The notes beneath the pieces were generated by a model that worked only from the letters and a program-made list of their open reading frames with translations, ran no database searches and was not told the origin of the DNA. A stretch of 39,246 nucleotides of DNA from Oscillospiraceae bacterium (GTDB taxonomy: Bacteria; Bacillota; Clostridia; Oscillospirales; Oscillospiraceae): contig JAISJH010000102.1 of assembly GCA_031261635.1 (NCBI GenBank), positions 1-39,246 on the forward strand. Reading direction: 5' to 3'. The position numbers and the translations under genes were made by a program. Positions 7,858-16,204 of this stretch are shown here, piece by piece. Within the stretch, counting starts at the first letter, position 1. Every line of letters begins with the position of its first letter.

Positions 7858-10800
7858 CTAACGCCTGTCGTGGCTAACGCTGGCCTCGAGGATATTGCTG
7901 AACGCCCAGTGTTTTGCCGTCAAATCGCTGAAAGGGTTCAGCGACGCGTCCGTCACGGTGCAGTCGCGTTTTAGTACGTGGTTTATCAGGGCAATCACGC
8001 CGGCGCGGGTTATGCCGTCTGTGCCGTGGAAATTGCCGTCGTACTTGCCGCTAATCCAGCCCTTGTCATAGGCCGCGTTGATGTATTTCGCGTAGTATTC
8101 GCCGCCCTCAATGTCCGGGAAGCCCGTGCTTCCTGTGCGCGGTTTCAGGCCGCTGATTTTTGCCGCGAGAACCGTGAAGCCGCCGCGCGTCATCTGTTCG
8201 TCCGGGTGGAACAGGCCGTCCGTAAAGCCGACAATCAGCCCCTTAGCCGCGAAGTAGTTAACCGCCTGCGCGTACCAGGCGTCCGGCTCAACGTCGCTAA
8301 AATGGTTTTCAAGTTTTACGTTTTTATCAGAGTTCGCGACGATATTGAAAAGTATCTGCGCCGCAGACGCTCTGGTCATAACCTTATCCGGCATTATCTG
8401 GCGAATATGGTTGCCAACGACATAGGCGCCGTGGTCAAAGTGCGCGGAACCGCTTGACCCGCCAGAGCCGCCGGAGCCGCCGGAACCGCCGGAACCGCTT
8501 GAACCGCTCGAGCCGTCGGAGCCACTTGAACCGTCGGAGCCGTCAGATGTTCCCGAACTACCGGGGCTACCGGGACTACCGGGACTGCCGGGACTGCCGG
8601 GATTACCGGGGCTGCCGGGATTACCGGGGCTGCCGGGACTACCGGGACTGCCGGGACTACCGGGGCTGCCGGGATTATCGGGACCGTCCGTATCCTCATC
8701 ACCAATGAGGATAATTCCTCCCGGGCGACCAGTGTCGTCGGGGTCGTCAGAATCGCCGGGGCTACCGGAGCCGCCCGGAGGCGAGCTGGGCGAGGGTGAG
8801 CTACCCGGTGACGGGTTAGGCGAGGGTGAGCTTCCTGGTGAGGGCGAACTACCCGGAGACGGACTTGGCGAAGGCGAACTGCCGGGAGACGGACTGGGTG
8901 ATGGCGAGCTTCCCGGAGACGGACTGGGTGAAGGCGAGCTGCCGGGAGATGGACTAGGCGAAGGTGAGCTGCCCGGAGTTGGACTGGGCGAGGGTGAGCT
9001 TCCCGGAGTTGGACTAGGTGTAGCGGGCGGGGGCGGGGCTGGAGGCGGGTTGCCGCCGGGGGGTAAACCGCCGTTGGGAGGTGAACCAGACGTGATTGGT
9101 ACATAGTTTGCCTGTATTGTTGCTTCAAAACTCTCGTTTTCGTTAGCAAATATATACAGAGTATTCATTAGAGTTGGAATAGCAATAGAACCACCGCCGC
9201 TTATTATTGTCCAGTTGATAAATCTGTACGCAGAACCGTGGTCAGGCGCGATTATCGTGAATATTTTACCCTCATCAACTTCACGGGAATAGGTTAGTGT
9301 AGTCTTTGTTACAGTATCGTTTATGTTTAACTTGTATATCGAATTGTCTGATTCAGGGGCTTCTGTGCCTGCTGCAAAGCGTGCTACTATTTTTGCCGAG
9401 ACAGGATTTTCACTTTCTTCAGTCATTATAAACGTCGCAGACGCACTTTTGTCGGTTGGCTGAAAATAACCCTCACCATTAAGTATTTCCCAGAAGTCAA
9501 ATATTTCATTTTCTTCGGGCTCATTTGCAGCTATCGTGAATACACCGGTTTGGAAGCCCTGTTGACCATTAGTTATAGTACCGCCCTCTACTGTTAAGTC
9601 GAACAGTGGGTCGTCTCCAGGCGTGGGCGGATCATTGTCGCCGGACCAGGCATAGTATGCTATTATTGTTGCCTCAAATACCCCGTAAGGCATTTCATAG
9701 CTAGACGCTTCGCTGCCTATCTCACTGATGTTACCGCCACCGCTCTCTATGTCCCAGTAATCGAAAGTATAGTCGGAGTGCTTAGACGCTTGTATATTAA
9801 ATGTTTGAGCATCTGGTCCCGCTGTGACTTGGTGAACCTGTTCGGGTTGCGTATATAAAATATCATCTCCATATTGCTCTTTTATTGTTAACGTGTAGCT
9901 CGGCGCACCGATATGTGTAAACATTGGACGGATAGATGCTCTGTAAAGATGGTTCCCGTCTCCTAATTGCCACATATTAAACGTCGCAGTCGGTGTAGCT
10001 GTTGAAGGTGAAAACACACCCTCTCTGTTGCCTTCGTCTGGAAATTGCGACCATTTCACAAATATGTCAAATTCGTTCTCTGGAGTTGCAACTATGTTAA
10101 ATATGCCGGTATTGTTTTGAACTACCTCTTCACCATCACCGCCGACTATATAACCGCCGCCTATTTTCAATTCATACACCGGGCTTGTGCGGAAGTTTGC
10201 GGTAACAAACGCGATTGCGTGAGTTGGTTCATTAAATTCGAAAGAGGTATTTTCTTCCGTTGGCTGCTCAATCGTACCCAAGTTGTCAGCGTTTGTCCAA
10301 CTGAGAAAGTCTGAGTCTACGTTCGGAATAGGCGCGTCTATTGGAAACACAGTGGCCTCCGGGTGCCATTGAAACGTAGGCTCCTGCGATGTGTTCACGT
10401 TGCTGAGTACGACCACGCCATATCCATCGAGGTAATTCGGTGGTAATTCGCCTGGGTTTTCTTCGTCGTCTTTGAGCATGTATTTCGCTAAAACAATAGC
10501 GTGTTTCTGTCCCTCTCCCATTACGTAGGTAGCAATATAATTCGGAACATCTGCATTAATATCACCTTTTACACCGCTACTTTTATCGACCCAACCGATA
10601 AACTTCATAGTTCCGCTTTCATTTTCAGCATCAACACTAATCTCAACTTCATCAGTGGCTGATGAAAATATATAAGGTTCAGCGATATCGCTGAGAACCA
10701 GCACATAGTAATCGCCCGCAGTACCCTGGGGTTCTCCGTCGGGGGGGTCATCGCCACCGTCGGTTGGTCTAAAGTGCGCTTCAAGAATTATATCATCGTC

Positions 10801-13800
10801 AATTGTTATCTCGTCCTGCGGAGCGTACTCTCTGCCGTCATCATTTTGGTTAATCCAATAATCAAATGTATGGTCCGGCTTGTATAAATTGCCCCCGTCC
10901 GGAACGCGTACTATTGTACCCTCGGGATAACGCGCAGCCGGGGGAAGGTCGCCGATAGCCTCCCATTCACTCTCACTTAAAGCATACGACAACTCATACA
11001 GCGGCGTGCCCTGGTTAGCGAGATAGAGGTCAAGCGTATACTTCACCTCGTCTGCGACAAAATCCGGGAACAGGTTGCCGTTTTGCAAATTGAGCGTAAC
11101 CGTTCGCGGAAGGGCGCTATCACTGTCGGTTGCCTTAGCATACGCCACCGCGGGCGTAGCGTCGGCTCTGTTCACCGTCGTTAAAGAGTTTGAATATCTA
11201 TCGTCCGAGTAGAAACTAAGCGTTTTCAGCGCGTCAAGGCCTGTGCCGTCCAAATCGCCCCCAAGCGTAAAGCTATCCGCAATAGCCGAGTACGCGCGGG
11301 TTAAATCGTAAGGGTCGCCCGTAAACTTGCCGCCTATCGGGCTGTCGTTTTTACCGTGACCAATAGGTTCCGCGTCGTCAGCCGCGAATATGTATCCCGT
11401 GACCTCAACATTGGTAATACGTATATCGCCCGTACCGCTGTTCTCCGCGCCGCCGCCGATACCCGCGCCGCCTTTCTCGTTATTTTGCATGCCAGTACCG
11501 CCGGAAATATAAGTAAACACGGAGTTCTCAATTGTTATATTTTCGACCGGTGAGTACATATGCCCGCCGCCAATACCCGCGCCGTCGGACGAGTTCATAC
11601 CTCCGATTATCTCCCCGTTGAATACCGCCTGTTGAATCGTAATATTTCCCGCGCTACTAAGCTCACCGCCGCCGATACCCGCGGAACCTTTAGCAGCACC
11701 ACCACCGCCGACAAGGTTTTCCTTAAATAAAGAGCCGTTAATAATAGTTATGTCATTTACCGAACTAAAGTAACCGCCGCCGATTGCCGCGCCCGCTAGT
11801 GTACTGCCTTGTATGTTGCCATTGAATGTAGCTGCGTTATCAATTCTAATTTCACCGCCAACGCCGCTGTTCCCCGCGCCGCCGCCGATACCCGCACCGC
11901 CGCCGTACAGAGCGCCCTGGATGTAACGCTCAAAATAACTTTCTGAAATTTTAATATCACCGCTTATTGCGGCATTATTTAACCCGCCGCCGATACCCGC
12001 GCCGCCGCCATCGCCGCCGATAATTGAGTCCCCAAACTCTGAACTTGAAATTTTAATATCACCGCCAACATCGTCAACCTTTGTTATCCCGGCGTTTGCA
12101 AAGCCGCCGCCAATACCCGCGCCGCCGCTTGTGCCGCCTTTAATTTCTCCGTCAAAAGTCGTATTTTCAATAGTTATGCTTGTCGCTTCCATACTGATAA
12201 AATCTTCGTCTCCTAATACTTCATTATCGCCGATTGGCGCGCCGCCGCCGCCGATACCCGCGCCGCCGCCGGCGCCGCCGGTTATTCTACCATAAAATGC
12301 TGCATTGGTTATTTTGATTTCACCTATGCCACCGTAATATACTTCGGTATCTTGGATACGTCCGCCTGCGCCTATGCCCGCGCCAAGAGCAGCTAAATTA
12401 TCTTGATTGGCATAAATATCTCCCCAAAAAGATGAACTATCAATCGTAATATTCCTAACTCTTGACAGCAGTCCGCCGCCAATTCCCGCGCCTGCCGCGT
12501 AACCGCCCATTATGTCGCCATAAAATTTCGATCCGTTTTGTATTAGAATGTCCCCGCTCACATTGGACGAATGGCCGCCTCCGATACCCGCGCCGGAGTC
12601 AATGCTTTGAGAGCCGTTACCGCCTTTAATAACGCCGTAAAATGTCGAATTGTCTAAGCTAATATCACCATTCACATTTGAGTAATTATTTCCGCCGCCG
12701 ATACCCGCGCCGCTATCGCCGCCGGTTATTATTAGAGTGTTGTATTTCGGAATTTCTTCTCCTTCTCCTATTTCTACTGCTTCGCCGAACGTCGAACCCT
12801 CAATTACGATGTTGCCATTGATGTAGCTATTGCTAGTCCCGCCGCCTATACCCGCGCCGACGGCGCCGCTGATGCGACCCTTAAACTCCGAACCAATGAT
12901 TTCTATACCGTTTTCTAAAGATTCACTGTTAACGGAACTAGTTGATCCACCGCCGATGCCGGCGCCGCCGCTATAATTAGCTTTACCCGCGCTAATGTTG
13001 CCTAAAAAAAGCGAGTTTTCTATTTTAATAGCTCTGTTGACATTGCTGTAGTTACCCCCGCCGCCGATACCCGCCGCTTCGGACGAACTGATATCCTTAA
13101 AACTTGAGTTAGTTATATTGATACTTCCAACCGATGCCCAATTACCCCCGCCGCCGATTGCCGCACCTTCCTGGCCGATTAACTCCCCCACAAAACGCGC
13201 GTTTGTTATGTTGATATCACCATTTACAGCACTGTTAAAGTCGGGACCGCCGCCGATAGCCGCGCCGCCGTTAGGACCCGCGGTGATTGTATTTTGGAAT
13301 ATCGTACCTAAATACGCTTTTGGAATCTTATATTCCTCATTGCCTGTGCTTAGAGACTGCGGTACATATAAATTACCGTCTATTGTGATATCGCCGTTAA
13401 CCTGAGCGCCAACGCCACTACCTATACCCGCACCGCTATTCAGCACTTCAATGGTGTTAAAAACCGATTCTGTAATAGTAATATTTTTGACGGAAGCATT
13501 CACACCGCCACCAATACCCGCGCCGAGTGTACTCGTTATCTGCCCACTGAACCACGAGTCGGTTATTGTAATGTCTCCCGCACCCGCATCAGGAGCGACA
13601 CCTCCACCAATTGCCGCGCCGCCCTGATTTCCCCCGCTAAGGTTTCTAAACTTAACGTGATTCAGTGTAATATTACCGACGTAACTAGCGTTATTGCTAC
13701 CGCCGCCGATTGCCGCGCCTTTCTGTGAAACTTCGGCTGTTATTATACCGCCGTCAATAAATATATTTCCGCCTAAGGTACGGTCTCCAGCGCCGATTGC

Positions 13801-14607
13801 CGCGCCAGTTTCGCTTCTCGCTATAAGTATACCGCTATGTGCGACAACAGGCACATCCGCAAAGTGAAAACCGTCAACGAAGCTTGCCCGTATATACGAC
13901 CGCCCAGCGTATTGATAACCTGCAGAATATAGCGAGTTCTCAGAAACAGCTGCAATTGCGTCACCGTAGATATTGACATTCGCCAAATTGTTAAGCAACA
14001 GCGCCGCGCCTTTACCCGCCGTAGTGAGGGTATTTTCTATGTCTGTCCACCCTCCGTCATCAACACCCGGATTGAGATAGATGTCAGTCGTGAAATCAGA
14101 CGAAGAATCGCCTCTAATGGCCAGAGCGTAGCTATTGTTTGTCAAATCAAAATCAGTAATTTTGTTATCATTATGTATAGTTAACCCGTTCAGCAGCAAG
14201 CGCACGTTGTCTGCCGATACTTTAACGATATAGTCGGACGTTTCGCCGGATAATATGTAGTTGCCCTCGGCGTTGATAGTTACGATGTTATCGGTAATAT
14301 CAATGCCGCTGCCGCTTGTTTCAGGGGGATTCTCGCCGTCAAACTTAATCCAGCCTGTACCCGCCGCCACAGTATCCTCGTTGTACACATCGCCAATCGA
14401 AGCCGTGTCTTTGAAAAACCACTCGAACATATTGTCAGGCTCGACGGCGTTAATCCGCGCGTAATCAATCGCCGGGAACAGCCCCGCGACGAACACAAAC
14501 GCGAGAAACAGCGATAAAACCTTTTTTACGCGATTGTGATAGCTACTCTTGTTGCCGTTTTGTAATCTCTCTGTTTTCGTTTTGTCATTATTGTGTATCT
14601 TTTTCAT
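7858..14607 (-). CDS. Giant SLH-anchored surface protein with Gly-rich beta-solenoid-like repeats
   Basis: This 2249-residue protein is secreted and probably bound to the cell wall. A long basic N-region and a hydrophobic core (KKVLSLFLAFVFVAGLFPA, about residues 28-46) form the signal peptide. Residues about 80-170 resemble the Cthe_2159-type carbohydrate-binding/beta-helix family. From about 265 to 1055 the motif GAGIGGG or a close variant recurs about 22 times, alternating with ITIxxSxF strands, as in a right-handed beta-solenoid. Residues about 1150-1845 hold several InlB/Flg_new-like repeats (FDYW..., ending in AxF or AxY). A Pro-Ser linker (about 1850-1950), a collagen-like GSP/GNP stretch (about 1973-2023) and a Ser-Gly tract lead to SLH motifs (about 2060-2249). 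GGAGGG precedes the ATG and a consensus promoter lies upstream. The role may be adhesion or glycan binding. Confidence 0.92.
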   Translation of the reverse strand: MKKIHNNDKTKTERLQNGNKSSYHNRVKKVLSLFLAFVFVAGLFPAIDYARINAVEPDNMFEWFFKDTASIGDVYNEDTVAAGTGWIKFDGENPPETSGSGIDITDNIVTINAEGNYILSGETSDYIVKVSADNVRLLLNGLTIHNDNKITDFDLTNNSYALAIRGDSSSDFTTDIYLNPGVDDGGWTDIENTLTTAGKGAALLLNNLANVNIYGDAIAAVSENSLYSAGYQYAGRSYIRASFVDGFHFADVPVVAHSGILIARSETGAAIGAGDRTLGGNIFIDGGIITAEVSQKGAAIGGGSNNASYVGNITLNHVKFRNLSGGNQGGAAIGGGVAPDAGAGDITITDSWFSGQITSTLGAGIGGGVNASVKNITITESVFNTIEVLNSGAGIGSGVGAQVNGDITIDGNLYVPQSLSTGNEEYKIPKAYLGTIFQNTITAGPNGGAAIGGGPDFNSAVNGDINITNARFVGELIGQEGAAIGGGGNWASVGSINITNSSFKDISSSEAAGIGGGGNYSNVNRAIKIENSLFLGNISAGKANYSGGAGIGGGSTSSVNSESLENGIEIIGSEFKGRISGAVGAGIGGGTSNSYINGNIVIEGSTFGEAVEIGEGEEIPKYNTLIITGGDSGAGIGGGNNYSNVNGDISLDNSTFYGVIKGGNGSQSIDSGAGIGGGHSSNVSGDILIQNGSKFYGDIMGGYAAGAGIGGGLLSRVRNITIDSSSFWGDIYANQDNLAALGAGIGAGGRIQDTEVYYGGIGEIKITNAAFYGRITGGAGGGAGIGGGGAPIGDNEVLGDEDFISMEATSITIENTTFDGEIKGGTSGGAGIGGGFANAGITKVDDVGGDIKISSSEFGDSIIGGDGGGAGIGGGLNNAAISGDIKISESYFERYIQGALYGGGAGIGGGAGNSGVGGEIRIDNAATFNGNIQGSTLAGAAIGGGYFSSVNDITIINGSLFKENLVGGGGAAKGSAGIGGGELSSAGNITIQQAVFNGEIIGGMNSSDGAGIGGGHMYSPVENITIENSVFTYISGGTGMQNNEKGGAGIGGGAENSGTGDIRITNVEVTGYIFAADDAEPIGHGKNDSPIGGKFTGDPYDLTRAYSAIADSFTLGGDLDGTGLDALKTLSFYSDDRYSNSLTTVNRADATPAVAYAKATDSDSALPRTVTLNLQNGNLFPDFVADEVKYTLDLYLANQGTPLYELSYALSESEWEAIGDLPPAARYPEGTIVRVPDGGNLYKPDHTFDYWINQNDDGREYAPQDEITIDDDIILEAHFRPTDGGDDPPDGEPQGTAGDYYVLVLSDIAEPYIFSSATDEVEISVDAENESGTMKFIGWVDKSSGVKGDINADVPNYIATYVMGEGQKHAIVLAKYMLKDDEENPGELPPNYLDGYGVVVLSNVNTSQEPTFQWHPEATVFPIDAPIPNVDSDFLSWTNADNLGTIEQPTEENTSFEFNEPTHAIAFVTANFRTSPVYELKIGGGYIVGGDGEEVVQNNTGIFNIVATPENEFDIFVKWSQFPDEGNREGVFSPSTATPTATFNMWQLGDGNHLYRASIRPMFTHIGAPSYTLTIKEQYGDDILYTQPEQVHQVTAGPDAQTFNIQASKHSDYTFDYWDIESGGGNISEIGSEASSYEMPYGVFEATIIAYYAWSGDNDPPTPGDDPLFDLTVEGGTITNGQQGFQTGVFTIAANEPEENEIFDFWEILNGEGYFQPTDKSASATFIMTEESENPVSAKIVARFAAGTEAPESDNSIYKLNINDTVTKTTLTYSREVDEGKIFTIIAPDHGSAYRFINWTIISGGGSIAIPTLMNTLYIFANENESFEATIQANYVPITSGSPPNGGLPPGGNPPPAPPPPATPSPTPGSSPSPSPTPGSSPSPSPSPGSSPSPSPSPGSSPSPSPSPGSSPSPSPSPGSSPSPGSSPSPNPSPGSSPSPSSPPGGSGSPGDSDDPDDTGRPGGIILIGDEDTDGPDNPGSPGSPGSPGSPGSPGNPGSPGNPGSPGSPGSPGSPGSSGTSDGSDGSSGSDGSSGSSGSGGSGGSGGSGGSSGSAHFDHGAYVVGNHIRQIMPDKVMTRASAAQILFNIVANSDKNVKLENHFSDVEPDAWYAQAVNYFAAKGLIVGFTDGLFHPDEQMTRGGFTVLAAKISGLKPRTGSTGFPDIEGGEYYAKYINAAYDKGWISGKYDGNFHGTDGITRAGVIALINHVLKRDCTVTDASLNPFSDLTAKHWAFSNILEASVSHDRR
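8540..8692 (-). repeat. In-gene collagen-like GSP/GNP triplet repeat
   Basis: About 17 consecutive Gly-x-Pro-type triplets (mostly GSP, with GNP) are encoded by 9-base units such as CCGGGACTA and CCGGGGCTG. Such Gly-x-y runs can form bacterial collagen triple helices, but this run is short and serine-rich, so an extended spacer is equally likely. Confidence 0.8.
8762..9050 (-). repeat. In-gene tandem repeat coding the Pro-Ser linker
   Basis: About seven or more imperfect 30-base units, each encoding PGSSPSPSPS or a close variant, sit inside the giant surface protein gene. Third-codon changes between units show they are not freshly duplicated. The unit number could vary between strains through recombination or slippage, changing the distance between the anchor and the functional part. 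Confidence 0.85.
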
Positions 14608-14658: not shown

Positions 14659-14687
14659 ATTCTACCATATGTGTTCAATTTTGTCAA
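14659..14687 (-). promoter_or_regulatory. Sigma-A promoter of the giant surface protein
   Basis: On the minus strand TTGACA (14687-14682), a 17-base spacer and TAGAAT (14664-14659), eleven of twelve positions matching. The -10 box lies about 50 bases before the ATG. Confidence 0.8.
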
Positions 14688-14729: not shown

Positions 14730-14845
14730 TAGGAGCGGGGTTTACCCCCCACGCGCCGCGCCGTGCGGCGTACTATCGTCCAAACCACCGTCTCTGATAT
14801 TTGATATTTGATATTTGATAACTGTTATTTGATAACTGTTATTTG
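14730..14845. repeat. Degenerate GC palindrome plus solo AT-rich repeat end
   Basis: The 313-base gap between the giant gene and the rsgA leader peptide carries two promoters and repeat remnants. A degraded copy of the GTAGGGGCGGG palindrome lies at about 14730-14752. A solo right end of the AT-rich element at 14777-14845 reads CGTCCAAACCACCGTCTCTG and then runs of TGATATT and GATAACTGTTATT. The matching left end is not seen nearby. Confidence 0.75.
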
Positions 14846-14855
14846 AAAAAGCCTC

Positions 14856-14884
14856 TTGACAAGCCCCAACATTCGTAGTATAAT
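14856..14884 (+). promoter_or_regulatory. Consensus sigma-A promoter of the rsgA leader
   Basis: TTGACA (14856-14861), a 17-base spacer and TATAAT (14879-14884), a perfect match. Transcription should start near 14891, giving about 270 bases of leader before the rsgA start. So strong a promoter ahead of two terminator-like hairpins points to control by premature termination. Confidence 0.85.
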
Positions 14885-14920
14885 AAACTCGAATCCAAAT
14901 CACGAAAGGGAGTGTTTTAT

Positions 14921-14953
14921 ATGACTGCAACGAAAATGGTGGCTGTCACCTAA
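14921..14953 (+). CDS. Ten-residue leader peptide upstream of rsgA
   Basis: The short ORF encodes MTATKMVAVT and stops with TAA. An AAAGGGAG ribosome site sits 8 bases upstream of the ATG at the right distance from a perfect promoter, so it is very likely translated. The stop codon lies 10 bases before a stem-loop that begins at 14964. A ribosome paused near the end of this ORF would cover the base of that stem. This is the standard layout of drug- or peptide-sensing leader ORFs in front of resistance and ribosome-protection genes. The peptide is too short for the general gene call and has no function I can name beyond this. Confidence 0.7.
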   Translation: MTATKMVAVT

Positions 14954-15048
14954 CTGAATAACCGGCGCAGGCAACTGTTGGGGAGGTGCTTCTCCTTGGT
15001 TTGTTGTGCGCCGCAGAAGTAACCTTTCGTGAATACTGCAATTTGTGC

Positions 15049-15078
15049 GGCACACCGACAGGTGTGTTGTTTTTGTTT
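15049..15078 (+). terminator. Leader terminator 1
   Basis: CACACC and GGTGTG form a six-bp stem around GACA, extendable by a G-T pair and a further G, followed by TTGTTTTTGTTT. It lies between the leader peptide and rsgA, as expected for an attenuator. Confidence 0.75.
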
Positions 15079-15079
15079 A

Positions 15080-15127
15080 GCCGCAGATTTTGCAGCCGTC
15101 GAACGGCTGCTTGTCCGCGGCCTTTTT
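15080..15127 (+). terminator. Leader terminator 2
   Basis: An outer stem GCCGC (15080-15084) with GCGGC (15117-15121) encloses a perfect 8-bp hairpin, GCAGCCGT with ACGGCTGC (15092-15110), and is followed by CTTTTTG. A second stop signal in the same leader would tighten shut-off in the absence of induction. It ends about 25 bases before the rsgA ribosome site. Confidence 0.6.
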
Positions 15128-15163
15128 GCGCCCTTTTCAACTGTAAACTTTGGAGGAAAACTA

Positions 15164-16204
15164 TTGACAACAATGCACACTTACGGTTTTACTGAAAACC
15201 AAACGACAAAAAACACCGCAGAAACCCCCGCGAGAGTTACGGCGGTTCACAAGGAACGCTATGAGCTTGCCGGCGAGTACGGAACCGTCTACGGCAAACT
15301 GAAAACGTCGGTTTACTACGGCGGCGCTGACGAAAATTTCCCCACTGTCGGGGACTACGTTCTAATTCGCTACATAGCGGACGGCGACAGCCAAATCGTT
15401 AAAACGCTACCGCGCAGAACGTACTTCGCGCGGCGCGACCCTACGCCCGGACGCGGCGAACAGGCGGTTGCGGCGAATTTTGACACGGTGTTTATCACAA
15501 CATCGCTAAACCACGACCTAAACCTAAAGCGCGTCGAACGCTACCTAATGCTCACGCGGCAGAGCGGCGCTACGCCCGTCATACTGCTCACAAAAGCCGA
15601 TTTAACCGGGGACATCGCCGAACGTATCGGCGCGGTCAGGGAGATTGCCGCCGGAGCGGACGTTTTCCCGGTAAGCGTCGTAAGCGGCTACGGACTGGAA
15701 CAATTGCGAAGCTACTTGATACCCGGACAAACGGTAGTTTTCCTCGGCTCGAGCGGCGTAGGAAAATCCTCGCTCGTTAACGCGTTATTCGGCGGAGAAC
15801 TTATGACGGTTAACGGTATTCGCGAGGACGACAGTCGCGGCCGCCACACTACGACGCACAGGCAGCTGTTCACGTTCCCCTCCGGCGCGATGGTTATTGA
15901 CACGCCCGGTATGCGCGAACTTGGAATGTGGGACGTGACAACCGGGCTTGGCGAAACCTTCGGCGGGGTCGAGCGGTATTTTGGCAACTGCCGCTTTTCC
16001 GACTGCCGCCACGAAAGCGAACCCGGCTGCGCCGTAAAACAGGCGATAGCAAGCGGCGAACTGCCCGCCGAACGCTGGGAAAACTACCTAAAACTAAAAC
16101 ACGAGGCAAAATACTCCGACGACAAAGCGGCCTTTATGCGAGAGCGCCGCCGGTTGCACAAAGACCTCGCAAAGCACAGCAAGAAAGAACGGTACAATTA
16201 TTAG
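15164..16204 (+). CDS. rsgA: Ribosome small-subunit GTPase RsgA
   Basis: RsgA is a circularly permuted GTPase that acts late in 30S subunit assembly and is linked to the stringent response. The N-terminal OB fold covers about residues 20-110. The G4 motif TKAD (about residue 142) precedes the P-loop GSSGVGKSS (about residue 195) and DTPGM, which is the diagnostic permutation. A zinc-binding segment follows (CRFSDCRHESEPGC, about residues 275-288). The 346-residue form begins at TTG 15164, seven bases after GGAGG (15152-15156). The ATG nine bases later is too far from that site, and the longer open frame upstream runs through the attenuator. The longer N-terminus (YGFTEN...) suggests it may be a second, inducible RsgA paralogue rather than the main copy. 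Confidence 0.93.
   Translation: MTTMHTYGFTENQTTKNTAETPARVTAVHKERYELAGEYGTVYGKLKTSVYYGGADENFPTVGDYVLIRYIADGDSQIVKTLPRRTYFARRDPTPGRGEQAVAANFDTVFITTSLNHDLNLKRVERYLMLTRQSGATPVILLTKADLTGDIAERIGAVREIAAGADVFPVSVVSGYGLEQLRSYLIPGQTVVFLGSSGVGKSSLVNALFGGELMTVNGIREDDSRGRHTTTHRQLFTFPSGAMVIDTPGMRELGMWDVTTGLGETFGGVERYFGNCRFSDCRHESEPGCAVKQAIASGELPAERWENYLKLKHEAKYSDDKAAFMRERRRLHKDLAKHSKKERYNY

Follow-up and report, generated by a model that had tools for sequence, protein, structure and literature searches.

The DNA ahead of rsgA2, the second rsgA gene of a 2.3-Mb clostridial genome (G000), probably encodes a transcription attenuator coupled to a uORF, which would respond to a ribosome halted at the stop codon of that uORF; its target would be a second RsgA of the stress type. 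Read in this way from its sequence, the switch seems to tie rsgA2 to the ribosome state of the cell. The window, by which we mean the whole 39,246-nucleotide stretch of DNA analysed here (contig C42), carries in order a promoter, a short upstream ORF (uORF), a stem, two terminator-like hairpins and rsgA (Table 1). The perfect promoter, the 10-codon ORF, the stem and the two terminators had been described in the original prediction, and all were found again on re-measurement; the 10-bp pairing P1, the pairings AT2 and P3 and the internal Shine-Dalgarno were absent from it. The leader folds more stably than its dinucleotide shuffles (z −2.5 and −3.2), and its recurrence in dozens of relatives speaks most strongly against a chance arrangement. 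No known RNA family matched: against Rfam 15 the leader gave no match above the gathering score, with chance matches only at a relaxed threshold, and a search of the loci of 16 relatives returned nothing except two neighbouring tRNA genes.

Table 1. Features of the rsgA2 leader and gene in the window
Feature	Positions	Strand	Details
Sigma-70 type promoter	14856–14884	+	TTGACA 14856–14861, 17-base spacer, TATAAT 14879–14884; 12/12
P1 5' strand	14900–14909	+	TCACGAAAGG; holds the uORF Shine-Dalgarno; 10/10 pairs with 15023–15032
Leader ORF (uORF)	14921–14953	+	MTATKMVAVT, 10 codons; ATG 14921, TAA 14951–14953
Internal Shine-Dalgarno-like site	14936–14942	+	ATGGTGG, three codons 5' of the stop; GAGGTG in most relatives
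P3 5' strand	14955–14969	+	TGAA...GGCGCA, right behind the uORF stop; pairs with 15127–15139
P2 5' strand (B)	14963–14975	+	Overlaps the P3 5' strand; pairs with 15002–15013
P2 3' strand (D)	15002–15013	+	
P1 3' strand	15023–15032	+	CCTTTCGTGA; almost invariant among relatives
AT2 5' strand	15036–15041	+	CTGCAA; pairs with TTGCAG of terminator 2, 15090–15095
Terminator 1 hairpin	15047–15070	+	T tract from 15071; missing in some relatives
Terminator 2 hairpin	15080–15121	+	T tract 15123–15127; in nearly all leaders
P3 3' strand	15127–15139	+	TGCGCC...TTCA, right behind terminator 2
rsgA Shine-Dalgarno	15152–15156	+	GGAGG
rsgA2, second RsgA GTPase	15164–16204	+	346 aa; TTG start, stop TAG 16202–16204

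RsgA works in late 30S maturation. The original prediction had named rsgA as the target, and the family assignment stands, as the product is an RsgA by TIGR00157 (profile score 171.3 bits, cut-off 100). The housekeeping RsgA copy of the same genome lies on another contig (C11), and at least two RsgA proteins above the TIGR00157 cut-off are found in 19 of the 19 leader genomes examined. In these genomes the housekeeping protein scores 188–262 bits and is mostly about 290–300 aa long, whereas the other is longer, scores 158–184 bits and is in most genomes the copy behind the leader. The gene behind the leader is the second RsgA and not the housekeeping one, and on this point the original prediction has to be amended. 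The presence of two RsgA proteins in all 19 leader genomes, similar to the pair of hflX and hflXr in Listeria, counts in favor of the attenuator (PMC6310831).

Searched as DNA at near identity, the leader had no match among 39 other relatives, and it was therefore traced through the DNA upstream of genes for relatives of the RsgA protein. Under a strict rule, the same leader is present in at least 56 of the 88 clostridial rsgA relatives with enough upstream sequence, counts that are not all independent because some loci of different collections represent one genome (e.g. L096 and L028). By this rule the leader is missing from about one third of the rsgA loci, which we count against the attenuator reading. 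The shared layout runs from a Shine-Dalgarno (GAAAGGAG) through ATG, about 10 codons, TAA, CTGAATA and GGGC... to the stem, and continues with AAGTAACCTTTCGTGAATACTG, terminator 1 (not in all), terminator 2, GCGCCC-TTTTCAG and rsgA. The comparison with relatives that the original prediction had proposed finds the leader ORF, covarying stems and terminators conserved among clostridial rsgA relatives. Many relatives also have a second small ORF just 5' of rsgA, and the window has none; in L026, L043, L020, L004 and others it lies between terminator 2 and rsgA with a uORF-like site (GAAAGGAGTTG), and in some relatives it runs, in a different frame, as far as the rsgA start or beyond it, which may suggest translational coupling. 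Three loci (L030, L032 and L041) carry an additional inverted-repeat insert between terminators 1 and 2 or behind terminator 2, with the flanking elements kept.

The coevolution of the pairings was assessed by an alignment-free test on a non-redundant set, in which the duplex energy of a leader's own two strands is compared with that of strands swapped between leaders. The best-covarying helix is P3, between the strand behind the uORF stop and a strand past terminator 2 (z −6.7 and −6.9); AT2, between the CTGCA strand and the 5' side of terminator 2, reaches z −5.3, P1, between the uORF Shine-Dalgarno and the downstream CCTTTCG, z −4.2, and P2, the stem, z −3.2, and the control strand pairs give no signal. 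As kinship could inflate such a signal, the swaps were restricted to the five nearest relatives, upon which P3 (p 4e-6), P1 (p 8.5e-5), AT2 (p 1.8e-4) and P2 (p 0.008) gave a signal and both controls were empty. In its own register P3 pairs in 81% of cells and has 17 double-change cells; slid registers reach 31–53% and 1–7 such cells. No coevolution signal was seen between the P1 3' strand and the internal or the second Shine-Dalgarno, between the strand behind terminator 2 and the second Shine-Dalgarno, or between the uORF and other strands. The covariation therefore backs AT2 as the putative mutually exclusive antiterminator. The original prediction had directed its antiterminator against terminator 1; this pairing, by the P2 3' strand, is feasible in the window (duplex −20.0 kcal/mol), but coevolution is absent in two tests (z −0.8 and −1.1), and the candidate is unsupported.

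Two alternatives are built into the leader, where the strand behind the stop can pair in P2 or P3, and the strand adjoining P1 competes for terminator 2, the intrinsic terminator ahead of the main gene. In healthy translation, the ribosome would leave the uORF, P1 and P2 would form, and transcription would end at terminator 1 or terminator 2. Under stress, a ribosome would be held at the uORF stop through drug-dependent slow termination, assisted by the internal Shine-Dalgarno, while the next ribosome sits on the uORF start, roughly one footprint back; neither P1 nor P2 would form, the CTGCA strand would be free to engage terminator 2 as AT2, and rsgA2 would be transcribed. P3 speaks against this reading, as its 3' strand comes only after terminator 2 and keeps it out of the termination decision; it would lock the read-through RNA, and this role as a latch is a guess. 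In masked equilibrium folding with the start and the stop occupied, the mean values across relatives fall from 0.91 to 0.81 for terminator 1 and from 0.88 to 0.73 for terminator 2, a modest drop, the largest among the masks, that is uneven across relatives and arises mainly with the start site occupied; it lends the switch weak support. A ribosome mask at the stop alone changes neither terminator at equilibrium, which does not support the original prediction that a ribosome at the end of the leader ORF would let transcription continue, and in the window leader no ribosome mask disrupts terminator 1 (0.91–0.98) or terminator 2 (0.97–0.99). What survives of the translation-sensing attenuator first proposed is its conserved ORF, stems and terminators, along with targets that fit stress; its terminator 1 antiterminator and its switch by a ribosome at the stop alone are unsupported in the form proposed.

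In a different hypothesis, which we consider unlikely, the leader gauges 30S loading on the uORF and requires neither a nascent peptide nor a drug stall. Scarce or defective 30S subunits would allow P1 to form, loading would free AT2, and the internal Shine-Dalgarno would be a second 30S contact. The coevolving P1 does conceal the uORF Shine-Dalgarno, masking this Shine-Dalgarno alone lowers terminator 2 in a subset of leaders (from 0.93 to 0.02 in L017 and from 0.64 to 0.00 in L048), conservation within the uORF falls on an anti-Shine-Dalgarno contact and not on the peptide, and the general role of RsgA in 30S maturation would suit such a sensor. However, it predicts more RsgA2 when 30S subunits are plentiful, the opposite of what would be expected of a factor in 30S assembly, and the GTPase resembling tetracycline-protection proteins and the GNATs found behind related leaders fit drug stress better.

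The case for a ribosome held at the uORF stop comes from the uORF itself. A short and apparently translatable ORF is kept in start, stop and frame among relatives: 45 of 63 uORFs have exactly 10 codons and 55 have 9–10, and the stops are 60 UAA and 3 UGA. In the codon five before the stop the third base is G in 63/63, while the amino acid varies (Glu, Met, Lys, Gly and others) and GG is constant; where the residue is Glu, the codon is GAG in 43 of 43 cases and never GAA, whereas rsgA genes use GAA 501 times and GAG 456 times. The internal site binds the anti-Shine-Dalgarno with a mean energy of about −7.7 kcal/mol, stronger than the −6.9 of the Shine-Dalgarno ahead of the uORF. In 300 synonymous shuffles weighted by codon usage, this energy was never attained (z −8.8). 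The best-conserved coding feature of the uORF is this internal Shine-Dalgarno, GAGGTG, which is under selection at the nucleotide level. The window has a weaker form of it, at −6.0 kcal/mol, where the Shine-Dalgarno ahead of the uORF reaches −7.2 kcal/mol. GAGGTG ends nine bases 5' of the stop, which is the ordinary initiation spacing for a ribosome whose P site contains the final sense codon, and we infer that it would hold the ribosome in this position. The peptides end in V-I/A/V-x-x followed by UAA, with Val at N-3 in 46/57 and an N-2 residue of Ile, Ala or Val in 42/57, similar to uORFs for which stalling at termination was inferred (PMC12121999), and the internal Shine-Dalgarno combined with this C-terminal pattern points to the uORF stop codon as the regulatory position.

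The same two residues are the ground for proposing a peptide-specific arrest, where a drug or metabolite would stall the nascent chain (consensus MTV..EVI.S), as happens in the erm, cfr and msrD leaders, and Glu-Val would give rise to the Shine-Dalgarno-like codons incidentally. MsrDL and the E. coli uORF ToiL share with the uORF the UAA stop, an N-3 residue of Val or Leu, Ile at N-2 and, putatively, stalling at termination, which for ToiL was inferred to be erythromycin dependent; in the parts of that source drawn on here, ToiL precedes another operon and a description of an internal Shine-Dalgarno was not found (PMC12121999). The comparison with both peptides covers the N-3 and N-2 residues only. 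We hold this arrest to be quite improbable, as Glu is replaced by other residues with the third base still G, as GAA is avoided, and as synonymous shuffles never match the anti-Shine-Dalgarno energy. An Arg-Leu-Arg motif is absent from the window uORF and from the relatives' peptides listed, and the uORF codon table has no trp-type run of codons for one regulatory amino acid.

Scanning 391 genomes of the class with a covariance model for the front half of the leader gave matches in at least 26, the weak ones being assessed by the uORF signature. Among the matches listed, a similar leader stands ahead of a GTPase with its best match to NF012153, the family of tetracycline ribosomal-protection proteins (434 bits, short of the cut-off of 775, the sequence being cut by the end of the fetched stretch), and others precede GNAT acetyltransferases, an RtcB fragment, CD3324 proteins, a weakly CotS-like protein and an ABC ATPase. 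These downstream genes, which include kin of genes for drug resistance and RNA repair, fit translation stress. That related leaders sit on unrelated genes, that the uORF is conserved in start, stop, frame and length, and that Rfam offers no match make it extremely improbable that the leader is a protein- or ligand-binding element (an autogenous RsgA site or a riboswitch) with an incidental ORF, for which the long-range, pseudoknotted architecture of P1 and P3 could be cited. The class-wide DNA pattern is unspecific without the uORF filter, since a reversed control pattern matches too, and a viral scan with it gave 0 loci passing the filter. In L118, L119 and L120 a small basic protein (KKKTTFDYMREIRGSWVINPRTRVQENN...) lies directly behind a similar leader; it has no NCBIfam or Pfam match in L119 and adjoins rsgA in L120. 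CD3324-family-like proteins (Mor-like helix–turn–helix) lie behind the uORF signature in L130, L131, L152 and L153, with rsgA next in L152.

The original prediction cited no such control for a ribosome assembly GTPase, but a precedent exists in Listeria monocytogenes, where a uORF attenuator (rli80) precedes hflXr, the second copy of a ribosome-associated GTPase (PMC6310831). This is the nearest known case to the rsgA2 leader, with a short uORF, a terminator and antiterminator, a second GTPase copy and a housekeeping copy elsewhere; it differs in its 14-aa uORF with an RLR motif, which the rsgA2 leader lacks, and in the gene, here rsgA (PMC6310831). The rsgA2 leader is further set apart from it by the internal Shine-Dalgarno three codons 5' of the stop, by the long-range P3 and by P1, which covers the Shine-Dalgarno of the uORF. 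The uORFC-6-1 motif upstream of Bacillales hflX is likewise a computationally found, structured uORF leader of a ribosome-rescue GTPase, although its structure is wholly downstream of the uORF start and its peptide has Arg-Leu-Arg (PMC8632094). Clostridial uORF attenuators that serve a ribosome-protecting factor and have an anti-Shine-Dalgarno element are known from cplR of Clostridioides difficile and from related ABC-F leaders; the cplR uORF has three codons (MRI) and its masking element controls cplR itself (PMC10201436), whereas the one described here covers the uORF's own Shine-Dalgarno. Among open-licence papers, we found no relevant report on rsgA with a uORF, attenuation or Term-seq.

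Going beyond the attenuator of rsgA2, we tentatively put forward as a possibility a new clostridial attenuator class, where an internal Shine-Dalgarno, and not the nascent peptide, would park the terminating ribosome at the uORF stop, the switch would sense termination, recycling or 30S state, and the regulon would consist of ribosome-maintenance genes (the second RsgA, the Tet-protection-like GTPase, RtcB and GNATs). If so, placement of a terminating ribosome by an internal Shine-Dalgarno would be a sensing principle unlike drug-dependent nascent-chain arrest, many Clostridia would hold a second RsgA as an inducible translation-stress response, and RsgA2, which has been little studied, could be tested for a role in protecting ribosomes like that of HflXr. 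Further genes of the response could be located with the help of a short ORF followed by the signature GAGGT-N10-TAA-CTGAATA.

Two features lie upstream of the leader. A tandem repeat with a 7/14-base unit (TGATATT / CTGATATTTGATAA) occupies 14794–14846 and ends about 10 bases 5' of the −35 box. On the minus strand, a second strong promoter-like site (14659–14687, 11/12, with TG ahead of the second hexamer) faces a 2249-aa ORF at 7858–14607.
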